DNA of 64,000 nt from positions 1 through 64,000 of the forward strand of contig CAJFGR010000021.1 in NCBI GenBank assembly GCA_904377845.1, in the 5' to 3' direction. The position numbers and the translations under genes were made by a program. This document shows positions 55,006 to 57,241 of this stretch, piece by piece. The stretch's first letter is position 1, and the number at the start of each line of letters is the position of its first letter. This stretch comes from an uncultured Ruminococcus sp. (GTDB lineage: Bacteria > Bacillota > Clostridia > Lachnospirales > Lachnospiraceae). The notes beneath the pieces were generated by a model, which worked only from the letters and a program-made list of their open reading frames with translations, searched no databases and was not told where the DNA came from.

Positions 55006-55039
55006 TTTTACAACAATATTAAAAAATATCAAGCGAAAT

Positions 55040-55120
55040 GATTAATTTTGCCACTGGTTTACAATGCATTCATATGATAGTATTAGTGAGGATAAAATAA
55101 AACAATAAAATTGATTAATT
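55040..55120 (+). promoter_or_regulatory. Leader of leuA-araC with GATTAATT repeats
   Basis: GATTAATT occurs at 55040-55047 and 55113-55120, 73 bases apart. Possible direct-repeat binding sites for the fused HTH domain, but AT-rich sequence makes chance likely. A weak TTTACA / TATTAG promoter lies between. No T-box or leader peptide with leucine codons was seen. Confidence 0.3.
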
Positions 55121-55138: not shown

Positions 55139-57133
55139 ATGGAAAACTGGAAGAAATACGAAAAGACCTATTTTATGCCGCCTGAGCCGTGCTATGACTG
55201 GGTAAAAAAAGATGCGATCGACAAGGCTCCCATCTGGTGCAGTGTTGATCTCCGCGATGGCAATCAGGCACTCATCGAGCCCATGAGTCTTGATGAAAAA
55301 CTGGAATTCTTCCAGCTGCTCGTAGATGTAGGATTTAAAGTAATTGAAGTAGGGTTCCCGGCTGCTTCTGAGACAGAATATCAGTTTCTGCGTACTTTGA
55401 TCGAACAGAACATGATTCCGGAGGATGTGACAATTCAGGTGCTGACACAGGCACGCGAACATATCATCAAGAGAACATTCGAGGCAGTAAAAGGAGCGCC
55501 TCATGCAATTATTCATGTATACAATTCTACATCCGTTGCTCAGAGAGAGCAGGTGTTTAAGAAAAACAAAGAGGAGATTAAAAAAATCGCAACCGATGGT
55601 GCAGAGCTTCTGAAAAAACTGGCTGATGAGACATCCGGAAACTTCACTTTTGAGTACAGTCCGGAAAGCTTTCAGGGAACAGAGGTAGATTATGCCCTTG
55701 AGGTGTGCAATGCGGTTCTTGATATCTGGAAACCGACAAAAGACAACAAGGCAATCATTAATCTTCCGACCACAGTAGAAAATGCGATGCCTCATGTATT
55801 TGCAAGCCAGGTTGAGTATTTCAATAAGCATCTGCGCGACAGAGAAAATGTGATCCTTTCGCTTCATCCGCACAATGACCGCGGTTCAGGAATCAGCGAT
55901 GCAGAGCTTGGAATCCTTGCGGGAGCCGACCGTATTGAAGGTACACTGTTCGGAAACGGAGAACGTACCGGAAATGTGGATATCATTACACTTGCAATGA
56001 ATATGTTCTCACAGGGTGTGAACCCGGAGCTTGATTTCTCCAATATGAGCGATATCTGCGAAGTATATGAGCGCGTAACGAGAATGAAAGTATCTCCCCG
56101 TCAGCCGTACGCCGGAGAACTGGTTTTCACTGCATTTTCCGGATCACATCAGGATGCCATCGCAAAAGGGATGGCATGGAGAGAGGAACACAACCTTTAC
56201 AAGTGGAATGTTCCGTATCTGCCGATCGATCCGCAGGATGTGGGGAGAAGATACGATTCCGATGTTATCCGCATCAACAGCCAGTCCGGAAAAGGCGGCG
56301 TAAACTATATCCTGAAACAGAGCTTCGGCATCAGTCTTCCGGAGAAGATGCGGGAAGAGGTCGGCTACCTTATCAAAGATGTATCCGATAAGGCTCATAA
56401 AGAGCTTACTCCTGATCTTATTTACCGTATTTTTGAAGACCACTATATTAATGCAAAACCGGTATTTACAGTAGACGAATGCCACTTTAAACAGGAGGAC
56501 GGCATAATTGCGGAGGCTTCCATACATCATAATAACAACACATTCAAAATTACCGGCGTAGGGAACGGACGTCTGGATGCTGTCAGCAATGCTATCAAAC
56601 ACTACTTCGATATCAGCTATGAACTTTCCTTCTACGAGGAACATTCGCTGACAAAAGGCTCCTCCTCAAGAGCGGTTGCGTATGTGGGAGTAATCTGCAA
56701 CAAAAAACGGTACTGGGGCGTCGGAATAGATGCCGATATCATTAAAGCCTCCATTGAAGCTCTCGTAGTGGCGGTTAACAAGATCAAAGAGATTGCGGAA
56801 TCTCAGGCAGGAAAAGATGAAAGACTTCTGGAAATCACGAACTATATCTACGCAAATTATAAAGATGTAACGCTTGATGACCTGGCAGAAAAATTCTATC
56901 TTTCCAAACCGTATCTTTCAAAATACATTAAAGAAAAATCCGGTATGACATTCGGTGATATCCTGAAAAAAATCCGGATGAAAAAAGCACGCGCAATGCT
57001 CAAAGGCAGTACGGCAACTGTAGAAAGCATCGCGGAATCAGTGGGATATCAGAATGTAGAACACTTTAATCGAGTGTTCAAGAAAATGTATAACATCACA
57101 CCGGTACAGTACCGGAACCAGAAATCTCTATAA
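55139..57133 (+). CDS. leuA: 2-isopropylmalate synthase fused to AraC-type HTH domain
   Basis: 664 aa. Residues 1 to about 420 are the catalytic barrel ([11 protein letters not shown] near residue 35; zinc-type motif [10 protein letters not shown] near 243). About 420-555 is the LeuA C-terminal dimer/allosteric domain. Residues 561-664 are a full AraC/Xyl[24 protein letters not shown] and the signature [23 protein letters not shown] precedes ATG 55139. The join is smooth and in frame. It would make 2-isopropylmalate from acetyl-CoA and 2-oxoisovalerate and perhaps bind DNA. No other leu gene is present nearby. Confidence 0.85.
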
Positions 57134-57157: not shown

Positions 57158-57208
57158 AAGCGGACACTCGATGTTGTTTGAGTTTACGAATTCATCGGGT
57201 GTCCGCTT
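57158..57208 (+). terminator. Long hairpin after leuA-araC
   Basis: A 16-base stem between 57158-57173 and 57193-57208 with one T-G pair. The T-run is weak (TTGCATTTA). Confidence 0.6.
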
Positions 57209-57241
57209 TGCATTTAGCTGATTTCCTGATTCAATTCTTAT

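Follow-up and report, generated by a model that had tools for sequence, protein, structure and literature searches.

A 2-isopropylmalate synthase with an AraC-type DNA-binding domain and a candidate operator at its own promoter in Lachnospiraceae

In a 64,000-nucleotide stretch of DNA from an uncultured Ruminococcus sp. (contig CAJFGR010000021.1), hereafter the window, we found a leuA gene whose 664-residue product has, as identified with Pfam, an AraC-type double helix-turn-helix (HTH) domain behind a type-2 LeuA, both of them complete. This domain order is conserved across genera, and a candidate operator, which goes with the HTH part, lies upstream of the gene at a fixed distance from the promoter. 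We propose, with a probability of about three in four, that a working LeuA acts as the transcription factor of its own gene, probably as a leucine-gated activator; the proposal is drawn from sequence comparisons. According to the original prediction for this DNA, the enzyme would also act as a leucine-responsive regulator. The regulator part is well supported by the HTH-linked operator at a fixed promoter distance, and the leucine response is suggested by the allosteric domain. The likely target, which had not been named before, is leuA's own promoter, joined in two genera by leuCD or leuDC-like genes.

The fused gene and its carriers

The leuA-HTH gene occupies positions 55139 to 57133 of the forward strand as a single open reading frame (ORF) with an ATG start. 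The protein comprises, all on the same strand, an HMGL-like catalytic domain (residues 31-307, 55229 to 56059; PF00682, E 1.9e-70), the post-catalytic domain IPMS_D2 (residues 327-393, 56117 to 56317; PF22615, E 1.5e-33), the allosteric domain LeuA_dimer (residues 422-549, 56402 to 56785; PF08502, E 3.1e-25) and the AraC/XylS double HTH (residues 561-664, 56819 to 57130). Within the latter, HTH_18 (PF12833, E 3.8e-21) matches residues 582-661 over its full 80 model positions, giving two HTH motifs in approx. 100 residues, and HTH_AraC matches residues 626-660. Every Pfam match was above the gathering score. The search bore out the earlier claim that LeuA and an AraC/XylS HTH are joined in one frame, as it returned this order within the 664-aa ORF. 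A terminator-like inverted repeat directly 3' of leuA (57158 to 57209, forward strand) was recognised by eye and not scored. The neighbouring genes, one on each side, encode a D-Ala-D-Ala carboxypeptidase and an M24 peptidase.

The enzyme part scored 805 bits against the NCBIfam model NF002991 (2-isopropylmalate synthase subfamily), with a cut-off of 455, and stayed slightly below the cut-off of the equivalog TIGR00970 leuA_yeast (675.4 versus 697.4). Eight residues, which we take to have the active-site roles of LeuA, were invariant in an alignment of 28 fused proteins: R39, D40, E176, H243, H245, N279, H337 and Y360. They align to the active site of LeuA from Mycobacterium tuberculosis (1SR9), the enzyme that also took ranks 1-12 in the fold search. 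In the 2.76 Mb genome to which the window belongs the only full LeuA match was the fused LeuA, and a loss of LeuA activity is therefore unlikely. An AlphaFold2 model from 28 sequences reached a mean pLDDT of 76.7 and a pTM of 0.53. It predicted seven HTH helices in residues 561-659 with pLDDT blocks of 80-90; residues 320-386 were poorly predicted and the domain packing was unreliable.

A frameshift or an assembly join between two genes had been named as what would overturn the fusion. Instead, a closed ORF of 661-676 aa with the same domain order was found in 68 loci, namely L001 and all of L009-L076 except L064, where the contig stops at residue 584. The same order was present in 77 of 80 named loci, the best 80 of 579 confirmed stretches; these were mostly near relatives of the window's genome and were retrieved with the linker and HTH as query, so that their fused state is partly a matter of selection. 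Two truncated contigs and one 560-aa ORF made up the remaining three. The 77 include the complete genome of Claveliimonas bilis. Since 68 loci of different genera and 77 of these best 80 named loci share this closed ORF, we regard the probability that an assembly or frameshift artefact joined two genes as negligible.

The fusion is also not restricted to the window's genome. Sampling the family with one genome per genus, 299 in all, we found the order in at least 69: 68 had full ORFs of 661-676 aa, and in one the ORF was truncated where the contig stops. LeuA matches at 1e-100 were present, among the matches listed, in 270 of the 299. Of 391 genomes drawn across the class, 13 had the fusion, 10 in Lachnospiraceae and three in two other families, and in an order-wide draw all 11 carriers among 196 genomes were Lachnospiraceae. 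Among the best 80 of 579, the named carriers, all Lachnospiraceae, were Mediterraneibacter (the closest), Faecalicatena, Dorea, Coprococcus comes, Ruminococcus torques, Claveliimonas, Hespellia and Schaedlerella; the first four and R. torques are common gut bacteria. In two loci, L078 and L080, the LeuA ORF is 553 and 558 aa long, respectively, and the AraC HTH is encoded by an ORF of its own directly behind it. These splits are either real or sequencing errors. L252 (560 aa, operator 47.4 bits) resembles a third such case.

Candidate operator, promoter and T-box

Upstream of leuA in the window we identified the candidate operator TTAAAAAATATCAAGCGAAATGATTAATTTTGCCACT (55019 to 55055, forward strand), scoring 47.7 bits. 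The operator is approx. 37 bp long, with the consensus TTAAAAnAnATCAAnnnAAnTGATTAAAwTTnTCACT and a variant that ends in AATCAT. Read as a direct repeat, its half-sites in the window lie at 55019-55032 and 55042-55055; it may equally well be read as an inverted repeat. Self-similarity of the matrix peaked at shifts 22 and 23 for the direct repeat (9.2 and 8.2), and the inverted reading gave 11.3. At L015, L017, L020, L022 and L024-L026 the operator forms part of a longer dyad, with the sequence GGAAAGTGATTAAA...TCACTTTCC or one close to it, and this symmetry could help a symmetric dimer to bind. In genus g208 extra ATCAA-containing stretches were seen between promoter and leuA start codon (L060, L212, L213), one of them adjoining the ribosome-binding site.

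The operator matrix has 46 columns and was built from 50 of the 69 fused loci. With each locus left out in turn, all 50 training loci scored at least 10 bits and 45 at least 20 bits. The best of 576 dinucleotide shuffles reached 8.5 bits, and the best score in 1.09 million positions of real flanking sequence (both strands counted, the 1000 bases before leuA left out) was 3.9 bits. All seven fused loci outside the matrix carried the operator at 27-48 bits; three of these came from other families and four from genus g208, of which one locus was in the training set. Among the best 80 of 579, 76 of the 77 named loci with at least 850 bases upstream had an operator of at least 20 bits, and the 77th had 8.2 bits at the usual place.

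In the window's own genome the operator was the single match, with up to 3 mismatches, to each of two patterns, and it stands at leuA only. Of 70 HTH-bearing genomes (68 fused and two split), 49 matched the strict pattern (at most 3 mismatches), 47 of them at leuA; so did 10 of the other 229, with 3 mismatches each except one with 2; the 229 include one fused genome that has only 47 bases before leuA. The 70 genomes gave 55 matches, 8 of them away from leuA, and the reversed pattern gave three. Six matches lay away from any leu gene, all with 3 mismatches and scores of -11 to 22 bits. They were found at a BASS-type transporter (below the family cut-off), a PorC-like subunit and, by eye, nitroreductase-like, glycosidase-like and two other genes, and we treated them as unconfirmed or chance. 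A 21.9-bit operator-like site approx. 470 bases upstream of a BASS/PanS-like transporter gene (L189, genome G191) is possibly a further target or chance.

Other leu genes carry the operator in two genera. In g208 it precedes leuCD, at 12-41 bits in five of six genomes and at 6.9 bits with one extra base in the sixth; the -10 was at 48-50 in the five measured. In G202 it precedes leuD-like and leuC-like genes of the isopropylmalate/homoaconitate families (22.8 bits, -10 at 49). As a general rule an operator before leuC was rejected, since it occurred in 1/30 genomes in a first test, and none was seen at the leuC loci examined of G373, G509 and G511. Five HTH-bearing genomes (G078, G138, G171, G232, G202) have no LEU2-type leuC above cut-off, and instead two adjoining leuC-like genes below it.

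The distance from operator to promoter hardly varied. In the window the extended -10 TGATAGTAT, from operator position 48, lies at 55075 to 55083 (forward strand), with a predicted transcription start at approx. 55090. Of 66 operators with at least 20 bits, 56 had an extended -10 (TGnTAnnnT) starting at position 48, five at 47 and two at 46, and three had none, against a background of 0.0014 per position; it was at 48 in 73 of 76 named loci (best 80 of 579). From this fixed spacing we conclude that the operator covers about -71 to -35, a place beside the -35 such as the tandem half-sites of AraC/XylS regulators, roughly two turns apart, also take. Matches to the -35 averaged 3.25 of 6 at operator promoters versus 2.58 in shuffles, and a perfect -35 (TTGACA) at the fixed place was found in 0/63. 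Downstream of the promoter a possible second half-site was detected in the window (55092 to 55116, forward strand; half matrix 21.3 bits, offset 73). In 32 of 66 loci such a half-site scored above the 99% level set by mononucleotide shuffles, at varying offsets, but these sites are weak, differ between lineages and are missing in many loci. As a fixed loop partner the second half-site was only partly supported.

The operator accompanied the HTH. At least 10 bits were reached in 68 of 77 HTH-bearing loci and in none of the 19 unfused loci (Fisher p 1.2e-13, kinship ignored), the unfused loci being a non-random draw from the most query-like unfused LeuAs. The split loci L078 and L080 keep the operator, with 46.0 and 25.8 bits. 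Of the nine HTH-bearing loci without an operator of at least 10 bits, some had weaker sites (at most 8.9 bits) at the usual place and two had a T-box, one of which (L066) also has a TTGACA promoter. Of the 19 unfused loci, 17 have the T-box core ahead of leuA. Altogether, the 97 loci comprised fused loci with an operator and no T-box (57), with both (9), with neither (7), with a T-box only (2) and not scorable (1), split loci with an operator (2), and unfused loci with a T-box only (17) or neither (2). Where a locus has both elements (nine cases), the T-box lies downstream of the operator and the -10. An Rfam scan of 20 loci confirmed 14 T-boxes. Eight of them were in the 10 unfused loci and six in the 7 fused loci that lack a near operator; the 3 fused loci with a near operator had none. 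In the window Rfam gave no hit at gathering score, and no T-box core TGGNACCGCG was found within 600 bases upstream of leuA with one substitution allowed. At L091 (4739-4902) a Clostridiales-1 RNA (RF01699) adjoins the T-box upstream of the unfused leuA.

On a quick tree of the LeuA domain, in which 45 of 94 inner branches were open, the unfused state needed six changes. The well supported (starred) branches held three independent pairs with a change of the HTH; the operator followed in 2.7 of these on average and never opposed, and three pairs are too few for significance. Coevolution of HTH residues with operator bases was discarded as support, since columns of LeuA reached much the same values as those of the HTH, with means of 0.19 and 0.25 and maxima of 0.70 and 0.67. 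Likewise, a link between the 3' operator box and the residue at 590 (K or E) was uncontrolled for descent and discarded.

Proposed self-regulation and alternative readings

In the mechanism we propose, the two AraC-type HTH domains of a LeuA dimer would both bind the approx. 37-bp operator at about -71 to -35 of a leuA promoter with a predicted extended -10 and no good -35. Leucine-free LeuA would most likely activate leuA transcription, like AraC at promoter-proximal sites, and leucine on the LeuA_dimer domain would both inhibit catalysis and switch activation off. Binding of the candidate operator by the fused HTH is very probable. Leucine is probably the signal, judging from the allosteric domain of LeuA, and we lean towards activation rather than repression. 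The geometry of operator, -10 and -35, together with the place of the operator upstream of the T-box, may be taken to favour this direction. On a wider scale, the feedback-inhibited enzyme of the first committed step in an amino acid pathway would have become a ligand-gated activator of its own promoter, would have displaced the T-box in this family via an intermediate with both in series, and would have reached other families together with the operator; we hold this history in even balance.

Repression could work with the same parts. Leucine-bound LeuA on the operator and on the downstream half-site, perhaps with looping, would then block RNA polymerase at a promoter that is on by default. 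Repression is possible because extended -10 promoters can fire without an activator, and for a biosynthetic gene end-product repression would be the simplest logic. Moreover, the operator extends to the -35 region, and the second half-site often lies just past the transcription start (32/66 loci above the 99% shuffle level). However, this second site shifts its position and is lost in many loci, while the spacing of operator and -10 is exact across genera and in other families. Exact operator-promoter spacing is more typical of activators. TTGACA was present in 7 of 17 T-box promoters of unfused genes, counted as the best of a region, versus none of the 63 operator promoters, counted at a fixed place. 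We therefore consider autorepression rather unlikely, and prefer activation by leucine-free LeuA.

Both directions presume that the fused HTH is what binds the operator. In the window's own genome the HTH part gave 25 more matches, which lie in other AraC-type frames, and HTH-operator coevolution is inseparable from descent, so that another regulator might bind there and the fused HTH might have another role or none. This is improbable, as the operator tracks this very HTH, including the split genes and the fusions in other families, is near single-copy per genome, and the helix positions of the fused HTH are invariant across genera. The HTH might also be a relic, or it might serve oligomerisation or allostery only and have no function on DNA; this would fit its absence or separation in some lineages nested among fused ones. 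We find this more improbable still: HTH_18 and HTH_AraC both matched in 21 of 21 fused C-termini scanned, and the HTH is kept in at least 69 genera, with the operator alongside in nearly nine of ten.

Meaning and comparison with known systems

It is an old idea that the feedback-sensitive enzyme at the start of a pathway may be its own regulator (autogenous regulation). If our reading is true, the fused LeuA would be a natural case of it, and a single allosteric domain would couple control of flux with control of expression. The loci would then form a replacement series, from T-box through T-box with operator to operator only, in which a protein switch supplants an RNA switch. The LeuA-HTH protein and its operator could also serve as parts of a leucine biosensor. 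Enzymes with DNA-binding domains are already known. In the open-licence literature searched, no titles or abstract beginnings described a LeuA with a DNA-binding part.

The LeuA of M. tuberculosis (1SR9; 3FIG with leucine) has the same catalytic, post-catalytic and allosteric domains and was the best sequence match (E 6.7e-153). It stops after the allosteric domain without an HTH, and the fused LeuA adds one. Ada of Escherichia coli is a methyltransferase-AraC fusion that activates its own gene. Like the fused LeuA it is an enzyme with an AraC-type HTH; unlike LeuA it serves DNA repair, takes its own methylation as the signal and is no biosynthetic enzyme under end-product control. PutA, NadR and BirA are "trigger enzymes", which combine an enzyme with DNA binding and regulate genes of their own pathway. 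The fused LeuA likewise has an enzyme and a DNA-binding domain in one chain, whereas those three differ from it in enzyme, DNA-binding fold and signal.

Control of branched-chain amino acid synthesis by T-boxes is known in Clostridia, as far as the available part of the source describes it (PMC2494555; Rfam RF00230). The T-box responds to amino acid supply by tRNA-dependent attenuation of an RNA, and precedes leuA in most unfused loci examined; none was found upstream of leuA in the window. E. coli AraC shares the HTH family with the fused LeuA. At araBAD it has two promoter-proximal sites, araI1 and araI2, of which araI2 when bound recruits polymerase, and it loops to a further site, according to the part of PMC4760080 available. 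AraC differs in that its sensor is a non-catalytic sugar-binding domain and in that the protein controls another operon, and the direct-repeat reading of the operator is uncertain for the fused LeuA. In BzdR a DNA-binding domain is fused to a shikimate-kinase-like enzyme domain, and the evolutionary model in the part of the source at hand has the enzyme activity lost (PMC3602430). The fused LeuA differs from BzdR as described there in that its catalytic residues are kept.
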